Shown piece after piece: positions 1-61,735 of a DNA stretch of 64,000 nt (position 1 is its first letter; each line of letters starts with the position of its first letter). Location: positions 170,664 to 234,663 of the forward strand of contig NW_004457415.1 in assembly GCF_000313135.1 (NCBI RefSeq), written 5' to 3'. Source of the DNA: Acanthamoeba castellanii str. Neff (taxonomy: Eukaryota; Discosea; Longamoebia; Acanthamoebidae). The notes beneath the pieces are model-generated. The model saw only the letters and a program-made list of their open reading frames with translations, made no database searches and was not told the origin of the DNA. A program made the translations under genes and the position numbers.

Positions 1-534
1 CAAGCAGAGCGCCTGGGGTCGGCGGAGGCCTTTCGGTGCCAGGGCTGCAACAACACCTACCAGGACTCCACCAAGCAGCTCTCCATGCAGTCGCTGCCGC
101 TCGTGCTCTGCTTCCACCTCAAGCGCTTCAAGCAGGAGGGCCTGGCCTCCACGGCCTCGTCGTCCAAGATCGACACCCACATCCGCTACCCGTTCGTGCT
201 CGACATGTCGCCCTACGCGAGCTCCACCATTGTCTCGCAGCGGCTCGGCCGCGAGCCCCCGTCGGCCCCGCCCGATCTCTACGAGCTGTTCGCCGTCGTC
301 GACCACAAGGGCAAGATCGACAACGGCCACTTTGTGTGCTTCGTGCGCCACGAGTCGCGGTGGTTCAAGTGCGACGACGCCACCATCACCCCCACCCAGC
401 CCCACCAGATCGCCCGATCCAAGGGCTCCTACCTGCTCTTCTACATGCGCCGCTCCCTCACCTACGAAGCCTCCTCCTCGTCCGCCGCCGCCCCACAGCC
501 ACCCCCGCCCGCCGCCAAGCCAGCATCTTCCTGA
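1..534 (+). CDS. Ubiquitin carboxyl-terminal hydrolase (USP family), C-terminal part
   Basis: This is the 3' part of a USP-type cysteine deubiquitinase, which removes ubiquitin from proteins. The reading frame is open from base 1, so the 5' end, including the catalytic Cys box, lies outside the window. Visible are a CxxC zinc-binding pair (CQGC, residues 13-16 of the fragment), the LPLVLCFHLKRF core strand, and the His box region NGHFVCFVR followed by W-x-KCDD, where the catalytic His and the Asp-Asp pair sit in this family. The protein ends in an S/P-rich tail of about 30 residues after the conserved SYLLFYMRR strand. The layout resembles the USP22/Ubp8 and USP3 group, but I cannot assign a subtype from the C-terminus alone. 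A canonical AATAAA follows the stop at 566-571. Confidence 0.9.
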   Translation, partial: QAERLGSAEAFRCQGCNNTYQDSTKQLSMQSLPLVLCFHLKRFKQEGLASTASSSKIDTHIRYPFVLDMSPYASSTIVSQRLGREPPSAPPDLYELFAVVDHKGKIDNGHFVCFVRHESRWFKCDDATITPTQPHQIARSKGSYLLFYMRRSLTYEASSSSAAAPQPPPPAAKPASS

Positions 535-2431: not shown

Positions 2432-5400
2432 ATGTCGAAGGTCGCTGAGAAGCTGACCATTCTGCTGGAAACGGGGAGCGGATTCCTCATTCGATTGTAC
2501 AACACCAAGATCAAGTACACCCCCGAAAGCAAGACCCGACCCGCGTTCCTCGTGGATCCCGTCTATGCCAAGGTGGTGGCTGCCTTCGGCAAGAAGTTTC
2601 CCGAAATCCCTACCGATCTCGACAAGGTACGCCCAGGGTTTGCAATTACTTTTATTTTTTGATCTTGCATTGACCTCCCCCCCCTTAGACGCCCGGCTAC
2701 GAAGTGTTCTTGAGCAAGGCCAAGCAGATTTATGAGGAGTTGGAGCCCGACTTCGACACCTTCGTTGACGCATTGGAATGGGTGAAGATTACACAGCAGA
2801 CTCTTAGCGACATCTCCACGGCCACGGCCGAGCTTACGGTATTCCCCCCTCCCCCCATCGCGCGTTTTTTTAAATTGAAACACGCCGCGCAACAAATGCG
2901 CCGATTTGGCATCTTATGAGCGATCTGCTGATCGCCATCTCCAACCTTGATGTCGTGTTCTTCTTCCTCTTCCTTCATCACTAGTGGGCATACACCCCGG
3001 TGACGACCGAGAAGTTTTTGGACCTGGTTACCATGTACTGCCAGGTGAACCTCCTGTGGTCCCTCATCGCCGACCGACGCACCATCGCCGCCGGCTTCGC
3101 CCGCGCCTTCAACGTCGTCAAGTCGCAGAACGAGTCCAACTTCCCCAAGGTGGCTCAGTACCTGGTACGCTCCTCCTTCCTCATCACTGTAGTAAGTTAG
3201 CTGTGGTTGTTGCTCACATGCAGCTGTCATCATCATCATCATCTTCTCTCTCGACCACGTAATGTTAGGCCAACTACGCCGATCCGTTCAAGAAGCTGCG
3301 GGAGGACTTCAAGCCCTTCACCAAGCGCGTGAGCCAGGCGCTGGTGTCGCTGCTGCCCTCGTACTCGAAGCTGAACAACCTCGAGCAGCTGCGCAAGGAG
3401 GGCACCCTCAACATCACCCTCAACCCGGAGAAGCTCGCCCTGCCCTCGCAGGACATGACCCAGCTCGACCTGCTCTCCAAGGAGAAGATGTACGCCTGGG
3501 TCGTCTACGGCCAGCTCTTCTGCCCCGAGGAGTTGGCCATGCCCGGCGCCCTGGACCTATGCCGCGTCGTCCTGTCGCAGGCCTACCGCGCGCCCGTCTT
3601 CCGGAACATCTCGATCCCGATCCACAACTTCTACTCCGACGCCTGGAAGAACTTCAAGTCCAAGACCTTCAAGCTGAACAAGGAGAAGAAGATCATCGTC
3701 GACGGCCTCCAGGCCGCCACCGCCGGCCACGGCTTGATCGGTATGCGCGCGCCTGCGGAGGTTTTTTGGGTCATGATGTGAACTAACGTGTTTCGTTTGT
3801 GTTTCGTTTTCGTTTTCGTTTCGTTTTTGCAGAGCGTCGTAACTTCCGCATCTACCTTCGCCAGAGCCTGCGCAGCTTGCTGGGTCTGCTCAAGGACTTC
3901 CCGGGCCTCCTGGGCCCGAAGGCGATCGTCGTGTGGAGCGCGCTGTCTGCCGCCAAGGCCGAGGTGTTCTGGTACTTCCGACACATCAACGCGCCGCCGC
4001 CGAAGAAGGACAAGTTCAACGAGGACGCCCTGCGCGACCAGCACATCTCCGAGCTGCTCCACCTCATCAACCAGATGTCGGCCCTGGTGAGGCAGCACCA
4101 GCGCATCATGCAGGCCTACTACCTCGAGTACCTCCACGAGGCCGATCGCAAGGCGCTCGAGGACCAGATTCGCACCATCCCCGCCCACGCCCCCATCTTG
4201 CCCATCCTCAAGTCCATCCTGAACGACCTGCAGTCGATCTCCGTGGAGTCCTTCATGGCTGGTGCGCCCACACGCACACGCACACGCACACGCACACGCA
4301 CACGCACACGCACACGCACACGCACACGCACACGCACACGCACACGCACACGCACACGCACACGCACACGCACACGCACACGCACACGCACACGAATCAA
4401 GATGGCTTACATGTGTCGCTTGTAGGCACCGAGTACAACTTTGACTCGCTCCGTCTCAACTGGGCTCGCGTGGAGGCCACTCTGTCGGTGGCGTCGTCCA
4501 CGATCAACCCGTCCGCAGTCAAGGAGCTCGTCCACCGGGGCAGAATCATCTGCCTGCACACGCGCAACGTGGACGAGATCGAGGAGCAGATCGACCTGCA
4601 CGCCTCGCTCAAGGCGCTGTGGTACTACCGCGAGAGCCTGGTCCAGGTGTTCGACAAGTCCATCATCGACGGCCCCGCCAACCCGCTCAACTGCATGGCC
4701 TTCCTCCACCTCCTGTCCGAGTTCCCCGAGAACGCCACGGGCTGGTATCCCAAGGAGCGGGAGATCATCGGCTCCGTTTCCGTCAAGCTGGCCGAGGACA
4801 TGCTCAACAAGATCACCCACCGCGTCGCCTCCATCGTGTTCGAGATCGGTACTGTGCGTGTGTGCGTGTGTGCGTGTGTGCGTGTGGGTGGGTGTGTGTG
4901 TGTGCGTGTGGGTGTGTGTGTGTGCGTGTGGGTGTGGGTGTGTGCGTGTGGGTGTGTGCGTGTGGGTGTGTGGGTGGAGTGGTCTACCGCGACCAGTGCG
5001 CTGATTCGTGTTTTCTTCCCATTTGCAGGCAAGCATAACATGATCTTCAACAGCCAGCTGAACCACGTCAACGGTGCCCACCCGCTGCTCGCGAGGCTGA
5101 AGGACTTCAAGTTCGACAAGAACTACGTGCCACCCACCACGCCCGGTACCGAGTCGCAGTACAAGAACAGGAAGGAGCTCGACAACCTGCGCCTTTACGA
5201 GCGCAACGTGCAGCAGCTCTGCGCGGCCATGCACGAGGTGATCGACATCACCATCTACGACACGGCCTTCACCCCGCGCGAGTACCTGCGCGATAAGCTC
5301 GTCGAGGTGCTCCGCCGATTTGTCAAGAAGGCGGTCCTCCTTGACGAGCAGAATTTTATCGTCCAGCGTCCCTCCGTCCTGGTACACCGTCACTGCCACA

Positions 5401-7376
5401 CGCAACACACGACACGACCAACGACACACACTCACGACACACGCGTGGATTGATTGTTGGTTGCTTACCTTTGCTTCGTCAAATTAACAGGAGAACAGGC
5501 TGCAGCTCTTCACCTTCACCGTTCGTCTGCTGGAGAACTACGTGTCCATGGACATCACCGGCTCGCTGAGGCAGTTCGTGCTCGGCCAGGTAAGTAACTC
5601 GCACGAAGTCACCACACACACACACACACACACATGCCGTGTGTGGCCTTGTGGCCAGCTTCACCAACTAAGCCACCACGAAACGGTTTTACGTATGTAA
5701 CGTGTACAGGTGTACAACAACGGCATGTCGGACATCAACAAGGTCGATTTCACGGTGGACAGCGAGCTCGTGTGGCGCGAGGATGCCGACCTCGGCAAGG
5801 TCCTCACCAAGTGGTACTCTGATTTCGTGTCCAAGCGCCTCACCACGCCCGGCCTCTGCTACTCGCTCAACCGGTACTCGCCTGTTATTATTTTATATTA
5901 TTTATATTATTTGTATTTATTCATTATTCATTATTCATTATTCATTATTTTTCTCACCGATTTGTGTTTTCTTTTTCTTTTCTTTTTACGGGATGATAGG
6001 AAAGCGTTCATTTCTCGTGCGGACGTGCGGGCGGTGCTGCCCTTCCGTCCGGAGGAGTACGCCGACCTGGCCGAGCTGCAGGCGCTCGTGCGGCTGGTGG
6101 GTCCCTACGGCGTGCGGGCCATCCACCGCGAGACGATGAAGTTTGTCGCCTCCAACATTGCGCCCATCAAGGAGGTGCTCGCCCTCAACCGCAAGACGCT
6201 CTCCGACATCAACGCCAACTACAGCAAGGACGTCACGGTCCACCTCAAGGCCCTCCGGGAGGTCGACACCTTCATCAACCGGTCGATCGCCATCGGCAAC
6301 GCCCTGCAGTTCAGGCAGCTGCTGCTCGAGGCCCAGCGCTCCGTCGCCGACAAGGACATGCCCTTCCTCGCCCACGCTGTCGACAACATTTTCGACCAGG
6401 TGCGTCTCGTGTGTGCGGTGCGGTGTGGTGTGTGTGCGTGTGTGCGTGTGCGGTGTGCGGTGTGTTCTAATGATTGTTTGGTTGGCGTGTGTTATATTCT
6501 AGTATCCGCGAAACACGTTCATGAAGCCGGAGTACCTGGAGCTGGACTCGCTGGCGATGACCCTCGGTCTCGACCTGGGCTCGGCCGACCAGGCCCTCAA
6601 GGCCGTCCTCTGCAAGGTCATCGGCGAGCAGGACAAGTGCGTGTCCCCCCTCCCCCATCCTCTCCGCCTACGTTTGGTCAGCGTTCTGACCCGGGTGGTG
6701 GTGGTGGGTGGTGACGTTTGGTTGGCAGGGAGCTGTGGTTGCTGCTGCCGATCATCTACGCCGCCGCGTTCGTGTCGTCGAAGACGTGGTCCGAGGCCAT
6801 CTTCCACCCGGCCATCGAGGGCCACGCCAACAACGTGCACACGCTCTCGCTGGCCATCAACGCGCTGCTCGTCGCCACCAGAGCGACGTCGACCAGCGAC
6901 AACGAACGAGAGATCATCGACCTGACCAAGAAGTTCATTGAAGCCGCCTCGTATGTCTCTTCACTCTCTGTTTGCTTCGTTCCCTCGCTGACCCCGCACA
7001 CGCGCACACACACACACACAGGTGTATTCTACTGAAGCAGGCCCAGCAGCCGCCCAGGCAGGTGGAGAAGGTGGTGCAGAGCCTGCCGTCGGTGCTCATA
7101 TTCATGGACAAGTTCGTGGAGGACTCGCCGTTTGTCACGCAGGAGGTGCTCGAGGCCTGCCTCCCCTACGCCCTCCTCCGGTCCATGTACAAACAACTCT
7201 ACGACACCAAGACCCAGGGCAAGAAGGGTAACTACCGCACGCAACACACACACACGACACACACACGACACACGCACACACTAATTGGTGGGCGATATGT
7301 GGAATGTGTGATTACAGGCAAGGCTGTGTTGGCCGCGGGCGGAGGTGCTGGCGAGCAGGCCGAGGACAACATGTAA
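2432..7376 (+). CDS. NCKAP1: Nck-associated protein 1 (Nap1/HEM family), WAVE regulatory complex subunit
   Basis: Nap1 is a large helical scaffold of the pentameric WAVE/SCAR complex, which activates Arp2/3 at the plasma membrane downstream of Rac. The first exon (2432-2626) encodes a start typical of the HEM family (KVAEKLTILLETG, then FLIRLYNTK). Fourteen exons can be read: 2432-2626, 2689-2838, 2985-3164, 3269-3740, 3833-4261, 4426-4848, 5029-5381, 5491-5589, 5710-5873, 6000-6399, 6503-6636, 6729-6950, 7022-7227 and 7318-7376. They give about 1,160 residues, close to the ~1,130 of animal Nap1. Downstream motifs (a LPMHEL-free helical protein with MYAWVVYGQLFCPEEL and NPLNCMAFLHLLSEFP) fit the family. 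Several introns are almost pure CA/GT-rich hexamer repeat. No domain is missing, and ATG 2432 is the only reasonable start. Confidence 0.93.
4264..4395 (+). repeat. (CACACG)n array filling an NCKAP1 intron
   Basis: About 21 uninterrupted copies of the hexamer CACACG occupy nearly the whole intron between the exons ending at 4261 and starting at 4426. The purine-pyrimidine alternation is perfect. Confidence 0.95.
4855..4980 (+). repeat. (GTGTGC)/(GTGTGG) array in an NCKAP1 intron
   Basis: Degenerate GTGTGCGTGTGGGT repeats fill the intron 4849-5028. The repeat is on the opposite strand relative to the (CACACG)n array in another intron of the same gene. Confidence 0.9.
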
Positions 7377-8430: not shown

Positions 8431-10362
8431 TTAGCTCTTTCCTCCTTGGAGGGAGGCTATGGAAGCGAGGGCGTTGTGAAGGTTCCTGCTCTCGACGTCC
8501 CACTTCATTCGCTTGTCAGCCACCGCTGCGGCTTCGGCGATCAGCTGCGCCTTGACCTGTGCGACGTCGGAGGTCCCCGTGACACCACCAAGCCTGGTGA
8601 CCATGGCATCGATGAGCTCGGCCGACAGCGCGCACATGGCCGCTTCGAGGGGGAGGAACACCTCCTCGTGGATGATAGTCGTTAGCAGCGCCACAACGCG
8701 AGCCTGAAGATCCGTGTCCCAGCCGGTGCTGGGCTGCTGAAGCTCGGGGTTGCTGTCGAAGATGATGAACAGGACGCCCGCCTTCCTCACCAGTTGCTCC
8801 TCGGCGGCCTGCGCGCGCGCACTAAACTGGGAGGTAATGACTGCCTCGAGGGTGTCGAAGAAGCACTTGAAACGGGCGAGCTTGGTCACACGTAGCTGCT
8901 TGGCTGCATCGAGCAGCCGCTTGACCGCCGCGGCCACGAACGTCGCCTCCTGCAGCACCTTCACCGCACTGTTAAGACAGCGAGCCTTGACCTCACTCGC
9001 GTGGTAGGGGTAGGACTGGCCTCGCGCTTGGGTCGACCGGAGAGACGCCACTGGCTGCACGGCCACCTTTGCCAGGGCGGCAAAGACGGCCTCGAACTCA
9101 ACGCCGTGGGTGGAGAAGAACTGGCTGACGTCCTGCAAGAGCTGCGGCAGCTGGTCGGCGGTGCGAACCGGCCCCAGGCCGTCGAGGTCGCGCTTGAGCT
9201 TGTCGATGCGTGCGTTGATGGCGAGCTTGGCCTGCGTGGCCCAGGTGCTCTCGACGTAGGTGCACATCATCTCGACCAGCTTCTCCACCAGCACCAGGCT
9301 CGACGCCAGCTTCTTGTCCACGTAGCCCGGCAGGTTTCGGTTGAACCACTCGACCTCTTCGATCGCGGCCTGCTCGAGCGAGTAGCCCCTGGTGCCCTGG
9401 GTGTCGCGGTTGCGCACGGCCACGTAGCCGTTGGCCAGCGGTATGTAGTCCTCCGACTGACCGTTGAGCTGCCGCTTGAACTCGTAGAACTTGTCGTGCT
9501 CGTAGCGGCTGTTCTCGGCCAGGTCGGACTTGGTGAGGACGCCGATGGTGTTGCCCAGCTTATGGTGTTTCTTGACGACCGTCAGGGGGCGGTAGTTGTG
9601 CATGCGGTCGCACGCAGACATCACCAAGAGCACGAGGGTGTGGTCCTGTTTGAGGTACTTTTCCACCAGCGACTCCGTGCTCTCCTTGATGTTCTCCGGC
9701 TCGCCCGCACGCGCGACTTCACAGGTTCCGGGCAGGTCGATGAGGGTGAGGTTGGGCACCCTGCTCGATGTCACCTCCACCACCACCACGTCCTCGATCA
9801 CGCCTGGTTTGCCCCCCCCCGAGCCAAAATAAGTCCACTAAACTATCTAATCTAACCAAACTAACTCAAATCAGGTAACTCAGCAGAGGGTGAACGTGCC
9901 TGCCAGCGTGGCGTTCCTGGCCTGTACTGCTTGTTCCATGGTATCGCGCACCAGTTTCTCCACGGCCTCGACGGGCAAGAAGACAGACCAACTGCTGGTG
10001 CTCCTGTCGGCGTACTCCATCCTGGCCCGCACAAACGCCACACCGTCGCGATAGGCCTCCTCGTGGTCTTCGCAGAACCTCGTCATGTCGGTTGGGCTCA
10101 TGTGCTTGAGCTGGAGCTTGATGGGCATGCGCGTGCACATCTTGTCGGAGCGAGGGAAGAACTTGAGCATGGCGATACGCTCGAGAACGGAGCTCTTGCC
10201 CGAGCTTTCCTGGCCGACGACGATGATCTGCGGGAAGGAGAGCTCGGCGACTTCCGACAGGTCGTTACGCAGCTCATCTAGCGAGGAGATGAGCGAGCCA
10301 GCCCTCTTGAGCAGTTGGAAGTGGAGGCCCAGACTGAGTGGGTTAGGGTCAGGAGACGACAT
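8431..10362 (-). CDS. Dynamin-superfamily GTPase, Mx-like
   Basis: This is a large self-assembling GTPase of the Mx/dynamin type, 611 residues, from two exons: 9900-10362 and 8431-9803 (463 + 1373 = 612 codons exactly). The G1 P-loop GQESSGKSS is at residues 50-58, G3 is DLPG inside NLTLIDLPGT, and G4 is TKSD. A long helical middle/stalk region follows, with a GED-like helical C-terminus. There is no PH domain or transmembrane helix, which fits Mx-type rather than classical dynamin architecture. The start at 10362 gives a short N-terminus before the bundle-signalling helix. The only intron that keeps the frame uses a GC donor (GCAG/GCACGT) rather than GT, and it restores an LAGVIEDV strand just before the G3 segment. 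The cellular role (membrane fission or antiviral-like) cannot be told from sequence. Confidence 0.85.
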
Positions 10363-19907: not shown

Positions 19908-20716
19908 TTACTTGGGGCCGAGGTGGCACTCCTTGGGGATCTCGAACCAGGTGCTGTGGGGCTTATCAGTCTTCCACTGCTCGATGTAGTAGGAGAACTC
20001 GTTTCCGGCGGAGAAGCGGCCGAAGTAAGCGAGGATGTTGGGGTAGCCGACGGGCACGGCGACCTCGAGGGTGATACCGGCGGTCTTGTAGCCCCAGAGA
20101 TCGAACTTGGAGCCGTTGGCGGTGAAGTTGCGGACGTAGTCGGCCTTCTCAACCCAATCCCAGAGCTGGGGCATCTTGCCGGTCAGGGACTTGGTGTGGC
20201 AGATGGGGGTCTTGTCATGACCAGCGTGGATGACCTCGAAAGCCTTACCCTACACGAACAAAATCAAAATTGCGATGGGGCATTAACAATTAATCCGGCA
20301 AGGATTGGGGGGGAAGTAGAATGAAGAATGCGTAATGAATGAGGAAATCGCACCTTGTCGAACCTCTGGAGCTCGTAGACGTTGAGGTGCTCAGCACCAC
20401 CGAAAGCGAAGGCCTCAAGGGCCTTGCCGTCGGGCTGCGAGACGTGGTACCAGCCTAACAGATGGAGGAACGGTCAGACTTGGTATCGATGATTTTGCGG
20501 AGGTAAAGACGAGCGGTAATGAAAAGAGATAATAAAATGGATGGAGATCATGGGCGGAAGCAGGTACATACCCTCGCCGAAGAAGAGGGTGCCGTTGTTC
20601 TTGATCTGCACGAAGCCCTTGGACTCGAAAGTCTCGGAGAGCTTGGGCCTGGTCTGCTGGGCAGCAGCGCAAGCGATCGCGAGAGCGAGGACGACGCAGA
20701 TGAGGAAGGAACGCAT
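19908..20716 (-). CDS. Secreted protein of unknown function (ependymin/LolA-like fold possible)
   Basis: Three exons: 20572-20716, 20354-20454 and 19908-20249. ATG 20716 begins a clear signal peptide (MRSFLICVVLALAIACAAA, then QQTRP). The mature ~180 residues contain SETFESKGFVQI, an aromatic-rich beta pattern, two Cys (PICHTK and PKECHLG) and N-glycosylation sequons NNGT, NFT and NGS. The arrangement PICHTKSLTGKMPQLWDWV then TLEVAVPVGYPN and a final Cys is reminiscent of secreted ependymin-related/LolA-like lipid-binding proteins, but I would not assert homology. The product is probably exported or vacuolar. The gene lies just downstream of the pseudo-ATPase gene on the same strand. Confidence 0.7.
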
Positions 20717-21056
20717 GGCTGTGTGAGGGAAGTCTGAAGATTGAAAGAGCAAGCCGCCGCTTTGTGTTGGCGGCAGAGGTCCGATTTAATTTTAATGAAA
20801 GTGACAAATTACTCTCCTAACCAATGATCGATTTTCGTCGACCACTAAAACCAGGCAAAAGTCTGCTTTGTCGGGCAAAAGATTGGCGGCAGAAAAGTCT
20901 GGGCCACCGTGAGCTGTGGTTGGTCGGCGGCATAACGGTTGGACCAACATTGGCCCACCACCTCTTCCCCCACCTTTTCTTGTGGTGAACAAGGGACATT
21001 GAGGTTTGATTTTGTGCGGTGGTCCAGTGAGAACTTTGTTTGTGCCATCAGCATCA

Positions 21057-24000
21057 TCACTGTAGAGTACAGCCACCGCCCTCGCCCTTCTTCCTCACAA
21101 ACTCGACGGCGTCGAGAATTGAGTCCAGCGCCCCGCCCGTCATGATCGCATCCGCCGCCTGTTGCACACCCTCGACGCTCCCCTGTGAAACGCGAACGGC
21201 AAAGTCGAACCGTGTGTGAGTCCCACAACAACACAACGCAAAGCAGCCCTCGCAGTGGAGGCAGTACCGGTGCGGCGATGCCGACGTCGGCCACGGCCAG
21301 GCCGGCGCAGTCGGCCAACTGCGCGCCGGTGGCGACCACCACCTGTCCAGAACAGATGGGGTTAGTGTCTTTTCCATTGCGGCCAACTGCTGGCCTGCTG
21401 GCTGGTGCCGCCCGCGCGTACCTCCGACTTTCTCATCATCTGGGCCGCTCTGACGATCTTGAGCTTCTGGCTCGCGTCCGTTCTTGGAAGAGTGACAAAA
21501 GAAAGAGAGAAGAAAGCGATGCGTGAGTCGAGAGATGCTCGAATTGCAGAGGGCAAAGAGTGGGGAGGGAACACGCGTACCCAGAGATGACGACTTCGTC
21601 GTGGGTTCTCATGATGTGCGAGAGGCCCTCCTCCATCATGAGCGCCATCTGGCTGCCGTCGAGCACGATCGCCTTGGCCTGCTCCAGCTTCTCCGGGTTC
21701 AGTTCGTCGACCATCACCCCCTCCTTCTTGGCAATATCCTCTGGCGTCTCCTTGGTAATGAGACCCATCTTCCGTGCCATCACCTTCACCGCCGGGGCGG
21801 AGTCCTGGTGCGTGTGCGGTGGTTCGTTTGCGTTTGGCGGTTGTTTGGAGGAGTGGTCGGCTGCCAGGGCTTGCGGCGCGCAGGGGAGGCTGTACCTGGG
21901 AGACCATGATGATTCGAATATTGGCGAGCTTGCAGCGTTCAATCGCGGACGGGATGGTCTTGTAGACGCGCGACCCCATCGACACCAGGCCGAGGAAACA
22001 CAGCTCTTTCTGTTGATTCGCGAATCGATCGATCGAACGAAAGAAGATGTTCGTTGAGCAATCACGCGAGTGAAGGTGCGCGCTCGAGCGAGAGACGACG
22101 CACCAGGGGGAAGTTGGGCGTGTAAAAGTCGAATTCAAAGTCGTGCGGGTAGTCTCTGCTATTGAGCGGCAGCTGCGCGAAGGCCACCACGACCTCACCG
22201 TAGCCTGCACGTCAAAAGGCCAATATGAGTGCACGTGAGATCGTCGTTTTTGCTTGGCGCCCAATAAATAAATAAAAATATTTGCATGAATAAATAGAAA
22301 AGACAGTGAAAGGCGATGTGCGTACCTTGGAGGATCATCGCCTGCTCTCGGATCTCCTTTTTGCTGGTGTTGTCGAGCTTCTTGCTCTGCCCCAGCAGCA
22401 TGTGCGTGCTGCAGTGCTGCAGTACCACCTCGAGCGGACCGGTCAACACCGCCAGAAAACCGGCCTTCGTCTGCGTGTGGCGGTCATGAAATTGCCGATT
22501 GGGTTGAGTGACCACGCTCAGGCACAACGCATACGAGTTGAAGTTGTTGGTGGGGGGGAAATCACAACAAACCTCATCTTCTCCACCGACGTGCGGACCC
22601 TTCGCCCACCGGTGAACGCTCACGTGGCAGTCGTTCAAGTCATCGGCCACCTTCTCCCACGCATTACGCATCTGTGTGTAGTGCGCAAGTACAAACGCCA
22701 TTGGGAGTGTAAGCGGACAAATGTGGTTGTGCGTGGCATGTGAGCGGGCGGTGTTGGGTCGCGCGACGTACGATTTCGCTGCAGAAGGCGTCGTCTCGTC
22801 GCTTCATGCCCAGCGTCGGATTCTTTTCGTAGAAGCGCAGGAGCGCACCGCTGGTGTTGTCCCACTCTTCGACGTCGAGGTGGTCGATGTTGAGCTTGGT
22901 CTTGTTCACGCCGTCGGGCACCTGGAAGAACGCGTTGCAGCCCAGCACGCAGGCCCGCAGGAGCGCGTTGAACGTGGGCTCGCCCTCGGGCAGGGTCGAG
23001 GTGGCCTCGCGGATCTCCTTGTCGATCATGATGTAACTCACCGAGCTCTTGTTCTCCGTGAGCACACCGGCGGCGTCCACTACCAGAGTCGTCACTCGGC
23101 CCAAGCGGCTCGCTGGGTGGGTGGGTCGTGCAGAATGTGAGCACGTGGCATACCAACTACATTGGAATGTTGTGCGGGGAGGCCATGGTATGCATACCAG
23201 CGTTGGGTTCCTTGAAGAGGAGGCCGTTCTTGGCGAGCTGCTTCATGATGGGCTTCTTGGCCTTGGGTCCGCCCTCCTTTCTCAGCTTGGCGCTCTCGTT
23301 GTCCTTGATCATTCGCGCCAGCAGCGTACCATCACCTGCGTTCCCGCGTGGATGCGCCCCCATCAAGATCAGCCAACTGACTCGCCGGCGCGCGTGGCTT
23401 TGTGTGGGTGCTTACCCGTGCGGACGACGATGCCCGTTCCCTCGCCATCGACTATGGAGGTGCCATAGAAGATGAGATTCTCGCTCGCCAGGTAGTTCTC
23501 TGTCGTCATGTCCACCTGCCATCATCATGTGAGCACGAGAATAAGAGATAAAGGACAACTGAATGGGCACCAAGCAAGCGTACCTGGCGTGGAATGGGCT
23601 CGGGGTCGCCAGTGATCATCGAATTGTCGACGAGCAAGTCGACCGTGTTGATGCCCACCACCCGCATGTCGGCAAAGACCGGCCCCGTCTCCAGAGTCAC
23701 CACGTCCCTGCGCGGGGGCGATCAAGTCAAGCAAGGCGGCCGCGTTAGTATCGCTCGCCTCCGAGGCACTGACAGACAGGGCAGAGACGAGAGGGCATTC
23801 AGGCGTACCCGACGACCAGTTCTCGGGACTCGATAGCCTTGCGATAGCCATCACGCCTGACCAACACCTTCTTCGTGGCGAACTCGTCGATGTCGAGCGT
23901 GGGGCTCTTGACCGTCGGATGATTCGGCCCGTTGCGGCCCAGCTTCTGCTCGGCGTCCATGGTGGAGAGTCCCTGTTGGATGCTCGTGCGGAAGCGCGCC

Positions 24001-25208
24001 TCGATCGCCTCCACCGACAAGATGTGATAGTCCTGAGGTTGAACAACGCACCACACACTCATAGTCAGCAACTCGGCGCCTAGCTCGCACACATTCGAAA
24101 GTGATGTGATTGCGATTTGGGAGTGGTTCGGTACGAATATGTCCTGGAGCGCGTATCTCCTCTGCAGCCCGCGACCGATGCCACCATCGTTGTCACTCGA
24201 ATCGTCTTCGTCTTCGTCGTCGCCGCCGTTTCGATCCCGCGCCTTCTTGTCGTCGGGCCGGTAGCCGGCGATCGTGTTTCGGCGGCTCCCGTCGTCGACG
24301 TCGAGCACATCGGCGCCGCCGCCGCCCGTCCTGAGGCTCTGCGTCTGGCTGGCGCTGAGCTTGGCCTGCGTCGTCGTGTCGTCGTTCCTGCGCTGGAAAA
24401 ACGAGCCCTTCTTTCGTTTGGGCTTGTCATCGCTGCCGTTGGTGTGTGTATCTTCCTTGTTGCTCCCCTTGTTGCTGCCCTTCTTCCCCTTCTTGTCGTC
24501 AGCTCCGCTGGTCTTGTCGCTCCGCTTCTCCCGCCGAGACGACCTGGGCGTCGTGTTGTGGTCGTCGGCGCTGGCGCGTGGGGACTTCACGCTCTGTCGC
24601 TCTAGCTCCTCGATGCTCTTCTGCGAACTCTTCTTCCTGCACTTGTTCCGCTTCTCCTTCTCCCTTCTGCTCTCTTCCTCCTTGGCCTTTTCCTTCTCTC
24701 GCTGTCTCTCTCTTTCCCTCTCCCGGCCTCGCGCTGAATCCAATGGGTCGCCCATGTCGTCTTCCGGATCGTCATCTACTCCCACGCGATTTTCAGATTG
24801 AATTCGGGGGGGGGGCAATCTATTAATGGCGTGTAGATGGGGCAAAGTACCTTCTACGTCTGGTATCAAACCTTCCGTTGCGTCTGGGCTGCGTGGAGTG
24901 ACCCCCTCGCTGGATGCGACGTCGGGGATGGCGCCCTCTGTTGCGTTTGTAGTGCGTGGGGAGCACGAGAGCTTGGTTCAATCGCTAATGGAGGGGAAAT
25001 AAAATGGAGCCGGTTCGGTACCTTCCTCATGCATGTTCTCGTCCACGCTCTCCTCGTCGCCTTTGGGTGAGACCGGCGGTGGTGTACTGGGCTCCATCTT
25101 CTTCTTCGTTTGTATCCGGCTGCCCCCTCCCCAGGCCGTGGTAGTTGTAGTGGGGAGGGGAGGCGGCTTGCCGTTATTGTTATTCACCCTCGGTTGGATC
25201 CTAGACAT
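21057..25208 (-). CDS. Soluble, transmembrane-less Na+/K+-ATPase alpha-like pseudo-pump with CaaX-type tail
   Basis: Spliced exon products align in order with the cytoplasmic parts of a P2C (Na,K-ATPase alpha) pump. A Lys/Glu/Arg-rich N-terminus is followed by DYHILSVEAIEARF, the A domain (GDVVTLETGPVFADMRVV, VDNSMITGDPEP), the P domain start (TTLVVDAAGVLTENK), the N domain (LTGPLEVVLQHC, VVVAFAQLPLNSRDYP), LCFLGLVSMGSR, IRIIMVSQDS, and the hinge equivalent VVVATGAQLADCAGL. All membrane helices are absent. M1-M2 and M3-M4 would fall inside continuous exons (about 23800-24030 and 23180-23340) that join the flanking domains directly, and the protein stops about 45 residues after the hinge motif, so M5-M10 are gone. 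Catalytic motifs are altered: DKTG to DAAG, TGES to TGDP, DPPR lost, TGDGVND to TGAQLAD. The last four residues, CTLQ after a Gly linker, form a CaaX box. The protein may act as a membrane-tethered nucleotide sensor or scaffold, which is inference. ATG 25208 opens exon 1. Confidence 0.82.
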
Positions 25209-26336: not shown

Positions 26337-29300
26337 CCAGCGCTAGGCACTGACATGCACACGGCTTGGATCATCACTGCGCACAGGCTGCCAGATCCGC
26401 TGCTGACGGCGGCGCAGTTCGAGCGCTGGACGAAGGCGTCCGAGATCCGCGACGGGGTGGAGCGGGTGCAGGAGGTGGCACGTCTCGTCGCCGCCTTGCC
26501 GCCGGCCAACCGCGCCGTCCTGGCCGAACTCACGCGGCTCCTTCACATGGTCCACCTCAACTTCGAGGTACTCCTTAACCACTTTCCTTTGTCTCGCCTT
26601 TGACTCAACAACTCACGTCTGCGCCTCACGTCGGCCGACGCGAAACAGAAAACGCGAATGGACGCACAGCAGCTGGCCTCCCTGTTTGCGCCGCACATGC
26701 AGTGGGCGCCGACCGGACACCCGGCCGCCGGTGCGCTGGACTGGCAGGTGCGGATGAACGATCTCGTGGCGCTCATGATCGTCAACTACGGCCTTCTCTT
26801 CGAGGCCGAGGAGGAGGACCACTGCAGCGCCAAACCTGCCACCCGCAAATACGGCCGCTTTCTGCGCAAGGTGCGTGCCGCGCCTGCCACCCCCTCCCGC
26901 CCCCACTGATGGCAAGTCGCTCACACGTCGCTTCGTGTGAATGTCGCGGGTTGTGCCACATATCTCTATCTATAGATGACCGGCCACCACAAGTCAATCG
27001 GCGCTGTGGAGCGCGTGTGGGGCGGCGACAAGTGGCACGTGTGGTCGGGCGACTCGGCGGGTAGCATACGCGTGTGGGAAGGCGAGGACCTGCGCTTCCT
27101 GCGACAGCTCGACTCTGGCCAGGTATCACTCGCATCCGCGCCGGGCGCATTGTATGAACGTCCGCCCGCTGACCCGCTCGGTTGTGTTTCTCTGCTTAGG
27201 GTCGCATTTTTTCGATCAAAGCGGTGGGCCCGCACGTGTGGACTGGGGCGGAGAGGTCCCTCCAGATTAGGGACGCACGAGGCGTGCTGGTCAAGGAGGC
27301 CCCGGGCGCAGTCTACTCCATCTGCCCCATCGGTACCGACGCTCCCCTCTTTGTCTTGTCTCGCCTTTCCGTTCCGTTGGCTCACTTCATTCGACGAATG
27401 CGCTGCAGTGCAAGGGAACACGGTGCACGTGTGGACGAGCGGTGATGCCAAGCTCAAGGTGTGGAATGCGAGCAAGCTCGACGTCCACCGGGAAATCAAC
27501 ATCGACGCCTTCGTGCTCGCCATGACCCAGGTCGACGGCCAGATTTGGGCCGCGTGCAACGACAAAAAGATCCGCATATTCAACACCAAGGTAGATGCCC
27601 ACATCTCCAGATCTGGCCCTTTCCCTGGCTGCCGCTTACTTTTCTTTTTTTCGCTGCAGACCTTCAAAATGGAGAAGGAGTTCGAGGCGCACTCGAGGAA
27701 GGTGAACGACGTGGTGGCGGGAAAGGACTACGTCTACACCTCGTCCGACGACCGCGCCGTGTCCGCCTGGCAGACTGATACCACCACTCGCGTATGCAAG
27801 GTACGCGTACCTCCACACGCGATTTCGCTTCCATCGCTGCGCGAGCTGACGACAGCTGGTCGTCCAGGGCAAACAACACACAGGGCTCGTGTACGGCCTG
27901 GCGTGGTCGGGCCAGCACCTGTGGTCAGCGTCGTGGGATAAGGTGCGAACTATCGTCCAGCCTTCTCCCGTGCCCACATGAATGAGCACACCGAGCTGAC
28001 TCACGCACGCACTGTTCCACAGTCCATCGCGGTATGGGAATCAGACCTTGAGCTGGGCGCGCGCTTGTGCGGCTATCACACGGACGCCGTCTCTAGGTAG
28101 CTCCCCCCCCATCCAAACCACGTACAACGATCGCGCTGCACAAGCCCACTCTCTCACACATCGGGGCCGCACCTCTCTCCCCCTTCATCAGCTTGCTGCT
28201 TATTCCTTGCCGCCGCCGACCCGGCATGCACGGCTGGCTGCTGGTGTCGGCCTCGTACGACAAGACGCTGTGCTTGTGGGCGCTCCCCGAGGGGCTCTGC
28301 ACTCTGCCGCAGCCCAACCTGCCCATGGCCGGCAGCCTCGCCGGTACTTGTCCACACTCGTCACCACCCGACACGACGATCTTTCATTCACGTCCCTGCC
28401 TCTGGTCGCTCACCCGCCTCGTTCGCTCTCGACAGGTACCAGTCTATCGGCGACGGCGGTGTTCCACGCGGACTCTATGGCGGCGTCGCACGCCTTCGAC
28501 CGGTCTATGCGACCAGACCCCATTCTCACGGCGACCACGGCCGGCCCCATGCCCTCCGGCACCGCTTCGATGCGGTACTTTGCCTGACCACTCTCGCGTT
28601 GTGTTGCTGTCTCGTGCCGTGTCGTATGCGTGTGCGTGTGCGTGTGCGGTGGTGCGTGTGTGCGTGTGCGTGTCGGTCTGTCAGCAGTTGCTGAGCTTTT
28701 TTTTTCGGGGCAACCATAGGCTCGGGGCGGTGGACGGCCGAGGCGGTGTGACGGGAGGACTGGAGCGATGGGAAATCGACCCGTTGCTCATCAAGAACCC
28801 GGGCACGTCGCTGGGCACGGGTTCGTTCGGTACCGTCTTCAAGGCTGAACTCCACGGCAAGCCCGTCGCCGTGAAGAAACTCTCCACACAAAAGTTTGAC
28901 GACAAAACCCTGGTGCGTCCCCCCTTGCGACACACACACAACACACACGGAAGCTGACTGGTTGGTGATGATGATGGTGTGCAGGACGACTTCAGGAAGG
29001 AGGTGGCGATCATGTCGACTCTCCGGCATCCGAACGTGCTGCTCTTCATGGGCGCGTGCACGCAGCCGGGCAATCTGCTCATCGTCACCGAGCTCATGCC
29101 GCGCGGGTCCGTGTACGACCTGCTGCGCGATCGGAGCCTCAAGCTGTCGCTCAAGCGGAAGATGCTCTTCGCCAAGGACGCCGCCCTCGGCGTCAATTGG
29201 CTCCATCGATCCAAGCCCCAGTTCCTCCATCTCGATCTCAAGGTATTCTTCTCTTCTGTGTGTCGTGCGTGGTGCGTGTCGTGTCGTGTCGTGTCGTGTC

Positions 29301-50982: not shown

Positions 50983-53900
50983 TCATGTCCAGTACTTGAG
51001 CGAAATGTCATCCAGCATTGCTCTGCGGGCAACTCGCAGCTTGCGCGAGAACGAAGCCGTCCTGTAGGCCGCCAGCTCGGCGTTGATCACTGCACGCACA
51101 CAGTGTGGGCGGAGTGAAGGGGCAAGAAACACGGTGAGCTGTGTGCGCAGCAAAAGAGAGAGGCGAGACGAGGGCAACTCACGTTTGGAGAGGAAGAAGT
51201 CTCGGAAGCTGCGCGGGTCATCCACCGAGAACACGGCCGGCTTTGGTAGCGTGGGTCCGAACAGCGGGACCCCGTCCTTGGCCGTTACCGCCACCCTGTG
51301 AATATATGAAGGCCACACCAACCGCGATATATCTCGTGAGCCACCATCGCACAGCCGCCCACGTCAGAACAGGGCGGACCTCAGGTGCGACGCGTTTCCG
51401 TTCTCGTCCCGCTTCTCCACACGCACCAGCACGACCACATCTGCACGATGGGGGGGGGGAACGCAGACGGTATGAGCCCACGCACGGTGGTGTTTAAATT
51501 TGGGAGAATGAGTGGGTGCGTCGTACGGATGAAGTGGGACTTGATAAGGCTGGGACAATACGATGCGGTCGGGTCGTCCAGGAACACGATCAGCACAATG
51601 TCGTTGCCGATGTGTCGCTTCCGCTCGATCTACGCCACACACGCGCGCGTCGCGTTATTTTACTGTCCGGTGTGTGCGTGCGTGTGCGGCGTGTGCTACA
51701 CGTACCTGTTGGGTATCGTCTGGCGTGTAGGGGAGTAGCGTGGAGACGTGGTACATGATCTGGTTCTCCCGCCACTCCGTGTAGATGGAGTCTGTCCCCG
51801 TGATGTCGTTTTTTACATTGAGCCCGCCCGCGAACTTCTCCCACCCCTGCAACCGCACCCGATTTCCCAGCAACTGGAGGAACGTCTCGTAGTCCGCACT
51901 CCCCCGCTCTGCGTGACACACCGGCAATCATAAGTCCTTGTGTGTGCTTGTGCGTGTGCCGTGCCGTGTGTGCGTGTGTGTGTGTGCGTACGGTTGGAAA
52001 AAAAGTGCTCCTCCGAGTCCTGACCCTTCTGCACCAGCACGACGCCGAATTTGTACTTTCGAGGTCGCTGCACCACCAGAAAAAACAAAGGGTCGTTAGA
52101 GATTGCACGCGCGGCTGCAGTTTAGAAGTGTACGTGCGCACCTCTTTCTCTTCGAGGTTGACGATGGCCTGTGGCAGCTGCGGATGGTCGATGTGTTTCA
52201 GGCAGCCTGCAAGTGAGCACCCCCAAGCCCTGTCAGCCAGGTCTTCTCCCGCACGCAATGGAGTGAGCCGGGCAAGGTACCAGTCGTGAGCAGGAGCGGG
52301 AAGGAGGCCTCCACGACCTTGTGCGCCCACCCGGGAGTGGCCGCTGCCGCGCCCAGCGCACTGGCCGGTACCACCGCCTTCTGGTCACCCTGCAACACGA
52401 CGGTTACCGTGTGAAATTGTCCAAGCGATTGAGCTAAAATGAAGAACGTGTAACGTACGTCTTGTGTGAGGACCATGATGCTGTATTGGTAGTTGCCGGA
52501 ATCGTCCTTCTCTCGCTTGGCGGCGGCAATCACCGTGCCCAATGGAGTGTCCACTCCGATGAAGCACGTGTGTTCTGCGAATGGAGTCGCGTTCCCACCA
52601 GTCAGACTTCCGTGTGTGCTTGTGTGTGCGTGTGTGTGTTTGTGTGTGTGCGTGCGTGTGTGTGTGTGTGTGTGCGTGTGTGTGCGTGAGTGCAGGAGCG
52701 AGTACCGTGTGGGTAGTAATGCTCCTTGTACCAGTTTTGTTGGAGGAAGCTGTAGTAGTTCGCTTCCGTCTGTGTGCCGCCAAGCTGAGTCAGCAACCAC
52801 GCGCACTCCAGGCACTCCGCGAATGTTAGCCGCTGATACCTTGATGGTGTAGTCGTATTCACATTCGACGGTGAAGCCCTCGCACTGAGCCACCAGTGGC
52901 AGCACCGCCTTGAAGCCGAAGCCCTTCCTGTTCTCCTCCTTGACCAGCCGGAGGGAGGAGAGGCTCTTCCGCTTTCCGGTCGTCTTGGTGGTCTCGCCCG
53001 CGGTGTTGTCCTGTTCCCACGGCGAGCCGGCCTTGACCCAGCTCAGCCTCTTTTGCCCAGGTCGTTCGTCGCCCGACGACTCGCTCGCTTCCTTCGAGGC
53101 CTCACCACCGTCGGTCTGCGATTGGGGAGCAGTGGCCGCATCGTTGGTGTAGTCTGCCGATAGTGAACGCTTGGACAAGTCGCGCCGCCGCTCGTTGCCA
53201 GCGTTGTTACTGCTGCCGCTGTTGTTGTTGTTGTTGTTGTTGTTCACTTGACCCTCCTCGCCGCCGGTGTTCTTCTCGCTCTCAACGCCGTCTCCCTTGT
53301 TGTCGACCTGGGCGTCGGCGTCGGCTTCGTCCGGGTCGTCGATTCGCGGCGCGATAGCCCTGGCTTCGCTTAGCGAGACTCGCTGGCGGGTCCGCGTGGG
53401 AATGGGTGCCGAGCTGGCGATCATGCGCAGGGTCTGGCGCTGCTGGAGATGAGGGCTGCCACCGGGGGAGGACGAGGCCGATGATGAGGCCGACGACGAG
53501 GACAGGACCAGGTCCAGCTCGTCCAGGTCGAGATCGAGCGCCTCGCCGCTGGCCACTCGCTCCAGCAGCTTGACCTCAGCCTCGAGCGCGTGTACCTCGG
53601 CCTCGAGTGCGTTGAGCGTGTGCACGTTCTCGCGGTCGCAGTGGTATGTGTCGTAGTCCTTGGCGGCCTCGCCGGCCGCGGCCAGCGTCGCCAGTATAGA
53701 CAGGCGCCGGCGCTCCTCCTTTGGCGCGTTGATTTCGGCGCTGAGGCGATGATGGCGCTCGCTGACTCCTTCGGACATCAAAGAGCCGCTGGTTCGCAGG
53801 AGGTTGTTGGGAGTCGCCGCTGCGGCGTCGGTCTGGCCCGGGCTCGTGGGATGTTGTTGTTGCGAGCCGACCACCGCGGTCGAGAGGGGCGGGCTGCTGG

Positions 53901-54535
53901 GCTCTTTGTGGCGGGAAAGCAGGCGGCTGCTACCGATGCCCACGATCCAGGGCGCCACCTTGGACGGTCGGCCGGTGCCGCGAATGTGGGCCGCGGCGGC
54001 GGAGGCGTCGTCGCCGCTGACCGTCGCAGAGCGTGTGCCGACGGAGGCCGACGAAGACAAGCGACTGCGCAGCACTGGCGCGTCCTGGCGCGCGGTGAGG
54101 TCCTCCACTTCCTGGTCCTTGAGGGCCAGCTGCAGCTTGAGCCTGGCCACCTCCTTCTCCAACTCCTCGCAATACGACTGGACAAGAACAAGAAACGACC
54201 AGGCAGCGGTCAGCGGCCGAGCTATGACGATGTTCTTTAAGTAGTATTGGAGGGAGGGGGGGAGGTGAGAAGGGGAACACCTTGTAGTAGTTCAGCTCGT
54301 TGTGCTTCTCTTGAAGCTGCATTTGGACGCTCTGGAGCTGCGTGTTGAGAATCAGTGTGTCTTGCTGCTGCCCCGATTTGTTGAGATTCAGCTGCCCGGT
54401 CATGGTACCGCTGCGGCGAAGGGTGGCCACCGCCTCCACGAAGATGCCACCCCCACCGCCCCCGCCCCCGCTACTGTTCATACCGCCCCTTTCGCCCTCG
54501 TGCGTGGGAGATGACCTCCCCTTCTTCCCCCACAT
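50983..54535 (-). CDS. Rap GTPase-activating protein with N-terminal coiled coil
   Basis: The C-terminal catalytic domain is clear: GNRVRLQGWEKFAGGLN, TGTDSIYTEWRENQIMYHVSTLLPYTPDD, then KRHIGNDIVLIVFLDD and a TLPKPAVFSVDDPRSFRDFFL segment near the end. RapGAPs use an Asn thumb, the N of IGND, and it is present. ATG 54535 starts MWGKKGRSS and an oligo-Gly stretch. Two coiled-coil segments follow (TQLQSVQMQLQEKHNELNYY and VARLKLQLALKDQEVEDL), then a long Ser/Ala/Asp-rich, low-complexity region with an Asn run. The GAP domain starts with KGFGFKAVLPL and VECEYDYTIK. It should inactivate Rap1-like GTPases at the cortex or membranes. TGA is at 50983-50985. Introns have CA/GT repeats, e.g. around 52618-52690. 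Confidence 0.85.
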
Positions 54536-60323: not shown

Positions 60324-60393
60324 GCATCCGTGGTCCAGTGGCAAGATTTCCGCCTGCCACGCGGGAGACCCGGGTTCAATTCCCGGCGGATGC
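60324..60393 (+). tRNA. tRNA-Gly (GCC), second copy
   Basis: Identical to the tRNA at 42421-42490. The upstream ATCTAAGAGAACAA and about 90 downstream bases are also shared, so the unit was duplicated with its flanks. Confidence 0.94.
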
Positions 60394-60698
60394 ATATCTT
60401 TTTGCCCCCCCCCCTTCATTCACTGCATCTCTCCTGTGCTGCAACATTGGCCCCCACATCTTTCTGGGCCTAAAAGTTTTATTTTGGTGGGACCACCTTT
60501 TAAAAGGATATTAACCTCACTTCTCACTAATTGCTTTTACTTTACTGTTTTTGCCACATGGTTTGCAGGTGTAAATTCCAGCAACCTTGCACGTTGAGTA
60601 AGTAATTCAACATGTTGGGTACACAGCCCGAAAAAAAAATATGCAGAAAAACGAATCAGCACCCCTCCTACATCTCTGTTAGAGACAAAAATTGAGTT

Positions 60699-60770
60699 GG
60701 AGGAGAAGGGTATCGATCCCTTTACCTCTCGCATGCTAAGCGAGCGCTCTACCATCTGAGCTACACCCCC
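60699..60770 (-). tRNA. tRNA-Ala (AGC)
   Basis: Anticodon stem CTCGC/GCGAG with loop TTAGCAT (AGC); T-arm AAGGG/CCCTT with loop ATCGATA. The G3.T70 wobble that AlaRS recognises is present. Pair 6-67 of the acceptor is T-T, so either the gene is slightly degenerate or the mismatch is tolerated. Discriminator A at 60698. Confidence 0.85.
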
Positions 60771-61027
60771 GTTACTTACATTATGACTCACAGTGGCCCA
60801 ACATTACAAACATATCATTCATTTACCAGGACTAATATATCTCCTAAAAGCCCATAACGGGAAGAGCCTGAACACATGGGCCTCCATCACAGTGGTCAGC
60901 GAGTTGTAGGTGCTCAATCTCAAGGGCCTGTAGGTGTGATGTGATGACCTTCTGCTGCTCAGCATCCAGGTCTACTGTTGCTCCACATGCACACCTGAAG
61001 GAGGATAGGAGGAGGAAATTAGACATC

Positions 61028-61099
61028 TCCCCCGCCGGGATTTGAACCCGGGTCGTCCGCGTGACAGGCGGAAATGCTAGCCAACTACACCACAGGGGA
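61028..61099 (-). tRNA. tRNA-Asp (GTC)
   Basis: Acceptor TCCCCTG/CGGGGGA (one G.T pair), anticodon loop CTGTCAC (GTC), T-arm CCGGG/CCCGG with loop TTCAAAT. Confidence 0.92.
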
Positions 61100-61664
61100 C
61101 AATGTGCTTTGTGGCAGAGTGTCAACAGCTGCCAGGTTTTTTTTTTGAAGGGGAGCTCAAGTACTTGCCACTGATGGGGAGCTTGGACATTGACAGCCCC
61201 TTCTGGGGTCACAGTTGGTTGGTGCTCACAATTCTTCCCCTTCACAGCAAGCTTGGTGATAAGCTGAAGGCACATATGGCTTTTTACCAGCCCCAATCTC
61301 ACCATCTTGTTTCCACAGGTCTCCATGAAATCTCTAGTTTCCTTTCATGCTTTTTCAATCCAAACTTTTATTTGTGTCTGTGTCACTCCTTTCATCCACA
61401 GCCAGCCCAACAAACACTCACATTGGGGCTACAATCCACATGATGGTGGTGTGAAGTTGTATCTTTCTTCCAATTCTCTGATCCAGGGTGTAACAGAGTG
61501 GCATAGTGGTCACCAAAATGTTGCTAACAATCATGAAGTACACAAACTGCTCTGCTGAAATGCTCATGACATCTTTCACCATTTTTTAATCTCCAATTCT
61601 TGCTGGAGCAAAATCTGCACCAATGTGGAAAAGGGTTTAAAAAACATGACCTGTTATCACCCAA

Positions 61665-61735
61665 GATTCCGTGGTGCAACGGTAGCACGCAAGCCTAACA
61701 CGCTTGAGGTCGCGAGATCAACACTCGCCGGAATC
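61665..61735 (+). tRNA. tRNA-Val (AAC), second copy
   Basis: Identical to 33091-33161. Flanks are similar only for a few bases (CCAA upstream, CATTTT downstream). Confidence 0.93.

Follow-up and report, generated by a model that had tools for sequence, protein, structure and literature searches.

A membrane-less P2C-ATPase headpiece with a CaaX tail in Acanthamoeba castellanii, a candidate prenyl-anchored pseudo-pump

The gene described here lies on the minus strand of a 64,000-nucleotide stretch of the Acanthamoeba castellanii str. Neff genome (contig NW_004457415.1; the whole stretch is referred to as the window). Its product was found to be the cytoplasmic headpiece of a P2C-type (Na,K/H,K) ATPase which lacks every membrane helix, carries altered catalytic and ATP-site motifs and ends in a CaaX box. 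We consider it probable (about 0.6) that this protein is a prenyl-anchored pseudo-pump, that is, a helix-less and catalytically altered headpiece which is held at the membrane and acts by binding partners. An orthologue from the amoeba Balamuthia mandrillaris and a set of 18 oomycete relatives were used for comparison throughout.

The gene and its P2C-type headpiece

The gene model, built from sequence and homology, consists of 16 exons forming one open frame of 928 residues, and the sole stop, a TGA, is located immediately past CTLQ. All 15 introns are 68-121 bases long with GT-AG borders, and the model agrees with an earlier sequence-only reading in which the exons were taken to join in frame. 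Given this intron length and the location of both helix-deletion junctions inside exons, membrane exons hidden within introns were ruled out. When the genome (38.4 Mb assembly, 250 contigs) was searched with the pump part, the matches were the gene's own exons alone, and it appears to be single-copy.

21057..25208, minus strand: whole coding region, 16 exons, 928 residues, stop TGA at 21057-21059
Exons 1-8, minus strand: 25208-25022, 24937-24851, 24775-24135, 24032-23809, 23707-23584, 23515-23416, 23335-23198, 23112-22772
Exons 9-16, minus strand: 22671-22573, 22470-22326, 22204-22104, 22009-21896, 21804-21581, 21482-21422, 21342-21268, 21182-21057

Residues 306-928 correspond to the cytoplasmic half of a P2C ATPase, with actuator (A), phosphorylation (P) and nucleotide-binding (N) domains and a C-terminus reading GEGGGCTLQ. 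The three domains follow in the order claimed at first. Among 17 families compared with the protein, TIGR01106 (Na,H/K antiporter alpha subunit) ranked first with an E value of 2.2e-86; its score of 290.7 bits lies far below the curated cut-off of 946.1 bits. The nearest solved structures in the PDB are the alpha chains of H,K- and Na,K-ATPases (E 1.6e-69). Pfam matches were observed to the A domain (PF00122, E 9.4e-19, residues 358-475) and to the N-terminal cation-ATPase segment (E 6e-06), and the membrane part PF00689 was absent at E values up to 1. In a tree built without the oomycete proteins, the Acanthamoeba and Balamuthia proteins grouped with P2C and fungal P2C-like pumps with a support of 100/99.

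The headpiece is preceded by a low-complexity tail (residues 1-305, exons 1-3) in which 42% of the residues are charged. In exon 2 (24851-24937, minus strand), a short repeated motif with the copies EGAIPDV and EGLIPDV was spotted by eye.

24135..25208, minus strand: exons 1-3, charged N-terminal tail, residues 1-305 (from composition)
24630..24734, minus strand: Arg/Lys/Glu-rich stretch, residues 106-140, probably a long charged helix, judging by the structure predicted for the Balamuthia protein
23865..23921, minus strand: M1-M2 scar, residues 343-361, inside exon 4, flanking pump residues joined directly
23289..23900, minus strand: A domain, residues about 350-470, exons 4-7 (PF00122, E 9.4e-19)
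23602..23613, minus strand: TGDP replacing TGES, residues 412-415 (aligned columns)
23211..23300, minus strand: M3-M4 scar, residues 467-496, inside exon 7, basic with net charge +7 (from spacing and charge)
23066..23077, minus strand: DAAG replacing DKTG, residues 513-516 (aligned columns)
22137..23023, minus strand: N domain, residues about 531-718, with PFNS and the Lys of KGAPE lost (structure matches and aligned columns)
21129..22136, minus strand: second part of the P domain, residues about 719-905, with DPPR, TGDH and the first Asp of TGDGVND lost and the Lys of QKL kept
21310..21330, minus strand: TGAQLAD replacing TGDGVND, residues 867-873 (aligned columns)

Lost helices, altered motifs and the former membrane side

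The absence of membrane helices is evident from the spacing of conserved pump residues. At the M1-M2 site, RNGPN and VVGDV are separated by 47 residues in both amoeba proteins and by 45 in five oomycete proteins, against 113-119 in six P2C-type pumps. At the M3-M4 site, TGDGT and the Asp of DAAG are 60 residues apart in the window protein and 63 in Balamuthia, against 116-123 in the six pumps; a hand count up to LVVA gave 58 for the oomycete Achlya, and the scripted oomycete values of 76-93 extend past that point because the script set its end column at another position. Past ADVGIAA, only 42 residues remain in the window protein compared with 284-446 in the pumps, and the protein ends before M5. 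Furthermore, no hydropathy peak (Kyte-Doolittle, 19 residues, at least 1.6) was observed in either amoeba protein, whereas the 260 fetched proteins not counted among the pseudo-pumps each have three or more; one marginal peak was found in four of the 18 oomycete proteins and none in the other 14. The losses of M1-M2 and M3-M4 inside single exons and the stop before M5, as proposed from the sequence, are thus upheld.

Motif states were read from aligned columns of the multiple alignment. The phospho-acceptor Asp is kept in both amoebae, where DKTG reads DAAG in the window protein (DKTGT to DAAGV) and DMGG in Balamuthia, and TGES reads TGDP in both. DPPR is replaced by SRVY and PRPM, TGDH by SQDS and SSEG, and TGDGVND by TGAQLAD and TGFLPND, in the window protein and Balamuthia respectively, with the last Asp of the latter motif kept in both. 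PFNS of the ATP site and the Lys of KGAPE are gone in all 20 aligned pseudo-pumps (window, Balamuthia and 18 oomycete proteins). The four motif changes first read from the sequence (DAAG, TGDP, loss of DPPR and TGAQLAD) were found together with three further losses, those of PFNS, the KGAPE Lys and TGDH. A retained fold, a partial loss of catalytic residues and the same loss in the orthologue are all features seen in pseudoenzymes.

The first Asp of TGDGVND is a Mg2+ ligand. Because established pump biochemistry requires the residues that have changed, the losses would be expected to abolish both phosphorylation and ATP use. A soluble HAD-type enzyme without any transport, whose kept Asp still becomes phosphorylated or processes a small phosphate compound, would account for the four residues kept in both amoebae, namely the phospho-Asp, the Ser/Thr of motif II, the Lys of QKL and the last Asp of TGDGVND. 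We consider such an enzyme unlikely, as the Lys-Thr following the Asp, the first Asp of TGDGVND, the Glu of TGES and the ATP-site residues are lost and the oomycete relatives have given up the phospho-Asp too (none of the 17 proteins holding that region). The sequence-only reading had also raised the sensing of nucleotide or ions by the headpiece. The headpiece retains its three domains (A, P and N), which could in principle close on each other, but PFNS and the KGAPE Lys are missing from the two amoeba proteins and from every one of the 18 oomycete proteins, which weakens the nucleotide version; the cation sites of pumps sit within the membrane part, which is missing here, and sensing of either kind is judged very unlikely.

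The C-terminal tail consists of a basic cluster (VRKK in the window protein, VKKK in Balamuthia), a Gly linker and the lipid box:

21060..21095, minus strand: tail RKKGEGGGCTLQ, residues 917-928, ending in the CaaX box CTLQ (21071-21060) after a basic cluster and a Gly linker; M5 of pumps starts close to this place

The Balamuthia tail is VKKKSGGGGCMVQ, with SGGGGCMVQ at its end where the window protein has GEGGGCTLQ, so that the CaaX tail after a Gly linker noticed at first is confirmed and conserved between the two amoebae. Counting as CaaX a C at position -4 with S, M, A, Q or C as the last residue, such an end was found in one of 279 fetched proteins, that of Balamuthia, in addition to the window protein, and in none of the 18 oomycete proteins. 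In both amoebae the most basic 21-residue segment of the headpiece is the M3-M4 replacement (+7), whereas the whole headpieces have net charges of -14 and -11. Compared with the layout of a pump, all three cut edges are located on the former membrane side and two of them carry features that would suit membrane binding; the headpiece may accordingly be docked on the membrane in the orientation it has in a pump.

As for the type of lipid, geranylgeranyltransferase type I (GGTase-I) accepts Leu, Phe or Met at the X position according to the consulted part of PMC9231725, and a CAHQ end was left unmodified by the human enzyme according to that of PMC11152559. The Gln at X thus points to farnesyltransferase. 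Among six scored candidate loci of the genome, those for the beta subunits of Rab GGTase and of GGTase-I were observed; farnesyltransferase beta was not seen among these six and no deeper search was made.

These features can be combined into a proposed course of events. An ancestral P2C ATPase gene would have shed all of its membrane helices and most of the residues for phosphorylation and ATP binding while the A, P and N headpiece was retained. A lipid on the C-terminal CaaX box, placed at the former start of M5, would then tether the headpiece to the cytosolic face of a membrane, and the basic patch at the former M3-M4 entry would aid this contact, with the headpiece probably facing the membrane as in the pump. 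The surfaces of the headpiece and the long charged N-terminal arm may serve as a scaffold or adaptor, with no catalysis or transport. The original suggestion of a soluble pseudo-pump returned to membranes by a lipid stands as far as the helix-less, altered P2C headpiece and the conserved CaaX box are concerned, while the lipid attachment itself is predicted from the motif.

Relatives in Balamuthia and the oomycetes

The one clear orthologue is a 1075-residue protein of Balamuthia mandrillaris (P0001), found by a protein search in which 7,993 candidates were scored (E 2.5e-135, 41% identity, 100% coverage of the pump part). It shares with the window protein the helix deletions, TGDP, the basic scar, the Gly linker and the CaaX box; it differs in having DMGG and TGFLPND in place of DAAG and TGAQLAD and in its longer N-terminal tail, which is 41% charged and is predicted by the structure model to contain disorder and two long helices. 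The headpiece of that model has pLDDT values mostly of 70-95, and its top PDB matches are P2C pumps. In the database this protein is called 'Potassium-transporting ATPase alpha chain 2', a name at odds with what it contains.

Identity between the two proteins is 29-59% per exon over the pump exons 4-16 of the window gene and 43% over 515 aligned columns, with 51% in the M3-M4 scar region (residues 471-507) and 61% in the last 23 residues. Judged from this alignment, the replaced parts (scar and tail) are conserved as well as the core of the headpiece. The same design is present in Balamuthia and therefore it is older than the split of the two amoebae and has been retained since. Motif losses and absent domains are also what a decaying gene copy would show; a pseudogene or an artefact of the gene model or assembly was rejected as scarcely credible, because Balamuthia keeps the deletions, motif changes and CaaX box at 41% identity, and the frame is intact over 16 exons, the third-codon-position G+C is 0.82 and the scars are inside single exons.

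Each of three protein searches was limited to the roughly 8,000 candidates with the most words in common with the query, and further orthologues may exist. The second of them, run with a three-row profile, was swamped by ordinary pumps and gave no recognisable new member. Capture of the gene by viruses was considered and rejected, as one tblastn scan of viral contigs (60 stretches) returned no relative.

A more distant match, Saprolegnia P0023 (25% identity over 98% of the query), led to 17 more proteins (P0230-P0246) and thus to the set of 18. Thirteen are named from Saprolegnia, Achlya, Thraustotheca, Aphanomyces, Pythium and Globisporangium and five were assigned to oomycetes by similarity; P0243 is marked partial, and P0246 and probably P0236 are also incomplete. 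These P-type-ATPase-A-domain proteins appear in databases under the names of hypothetical proteins or sodium/potassium pump subunits. Like the window protein, they have a P2C-like headpiece without membrane helices, nearly identical junction places and lost ATP-site and catalytic motifs. Unlike it, they lack the phospho-Asp (0/17 with the region) and the CaaX box and have a C-terminal tail of their own. The Lys of KGAPE and the first Asp of TGDGVND are each kept in 0/18, and TGE is kept in 5/17.

In a tree with the oomycetes as the only pseudo-pump group, these proteins fall among P2C and fungal P2C-like pumps (98/93). When both groups were included, the window and Balamuthia proteins were joined with a support of 100/100, the amoeba and oomycete pseudo-pumps were joined with a support of 95/89 and both branches were long; alternatives placing one or the other group with P2C pumps gave p-AU values of 0.078-0.175. 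Derived residues shared by the amoebae and oomycetes occur in 5 of 117 columns, compared with 1-5 of 148-192 columns in eight control pairs, and were rejected as proof of a single origin because there is no clear excess over the controls. The two groups may descend from one membrane-less ancestor or have lost their helices separately. A tentative reading, which we rate below an even chance, takes them for a single ancient family of eukaryotic pseudo-pumps. In that case a headpiece of Na,K type would have come free before the split between amoebozoans and stramenopiles, or been transferred from one to the other, and would have been kept as a binding module; in acanthamoebid amoebae it would have become lipid-anchored at the place of M5 with the pump orientation kept, and shape changes could make it a switch that transports nothing.

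Genomic context and comparison with known systems

A further alternative to the prenyl-anchored binding headpiece is that the protein regulates a true P2C pump or acts as its decoy, competing for the cytosolic partners of that pump. The surface of the protein descends from the same headpiece as that of P2C pumps, and the titles of solved structures show human P2C pumps complexed with NDRG3. Against this, none of nine P-type loci taken from the PF00122 matches in the genome has a P2C pump as its clear best match. With subfamily labels that are our own and partly taken from source names, three loci were best matched by heavy-metal (P1B) pumps, one by a proton pump and two (L026 and L029) by non-P2C P2 pumps, with P2C pumps second for L026. 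L027 is a weak match to a proton pump (53 bits), L028 is a weak match to a fungal P2C-like pump (36 bits, others 35) and L030 has no match. The search of the genome with the pseudo-pump also returned just its own exons. Binding of a true pump, as first suggested, is weakened by these results, though not decisively, given the ambiguous L026 and weak L028. We regard a decoy role towards such a pump as quite unlikely and less likely than the prenyl-anchored binding headpiece.

Several other features were noticed in the window. Near the 5' end of the pseudo-pump gene and on the opposite strand, 26976-27941 (plus) shows weak WD40 repeat matches (Pfam E 2.1e-06, below the family cut-off), and past its 3' end a short frame at 20474-20785 (minus) has a signal-peptide-like start, MRSFLICVVLALAIACAAAQ. 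Open frames with an Nckap1 match (3843-5453, plus; PF09735, E 1.2e-50) and with dynamin N and M domains (8431-9837, minus; E 2.5e-09 and 1.4e-07) were also observed. The longest stop-to-stop frame of the window (52198-54291, minus; 697 residues) has no Pfam match at E 0.001. Rfam gave six tRNA genes (33091, 42420 and 60324-61736), four of which are found on both strands within about 1.4 kb at 60324-61736.

In P-type pumps, the catalytic headpiece makes sense only together with the membrane helices, as textbooks describe. A helix-less headpiece with altered chemistry in two amoeba genera, together with a parallel form in oomycetes, implies that the A-P-N module is useful by itself, perhaps as a platform for binding partners. 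It also means that a sodium or potassium pump name in a public database may not denote an actual pump. The sequence-only reading knew of no described protein of this design. A membrane-less P2C protein was likewise not found described in the open-access literature searched, where the comma and slash spellings of Na,K-ATPase are unsearchable, and the consulted part of a 2023 review of P-type ATPases (PMC10654040) contains no mention of 'soluble' or 'without transmembrane'; the databases do hold the Balamuthia orthologue and the 18 oomycete relatives, so that the earlier statement was too strong in this respect.

The window protein resembles the P2C ATPases (alpha subunits of the Na,K- and H,K-ATPases, TIGR01106) in its A, P and N domains, which agree in order, fold and sequence, and in its N-terminal segment. 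It differs from them in lacking M1-M10, in its altered DKTG, TGES, DPPR and TGDGVND, in its lost ATP-site motifs and in having a CaaX tail and a long charged N-terminal tail. The soluble P-type ATPase of Methanococcus jannaschii is likewise related to P-type ATPases and without membrane helices, but this protein, which Ogawa is said to have described in 2000, is reportedly an archaeal HAD enzyme that keeps its catalytic motifs. The P4-ATPase domain appended to a Plasmodium guanylyl cyclase is said to keep its membrane helices and to be fused to the cyclase, unlike the window protein. The likeness lies in the use of a P-type ATPase part in signalling, as indicated by the consulted part of PMC7858053. 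Pseudoenzymes and lipid anchors are both known; for a P2C pseudo-pump devoid of its membrane part, the literature searched gave no precedent.

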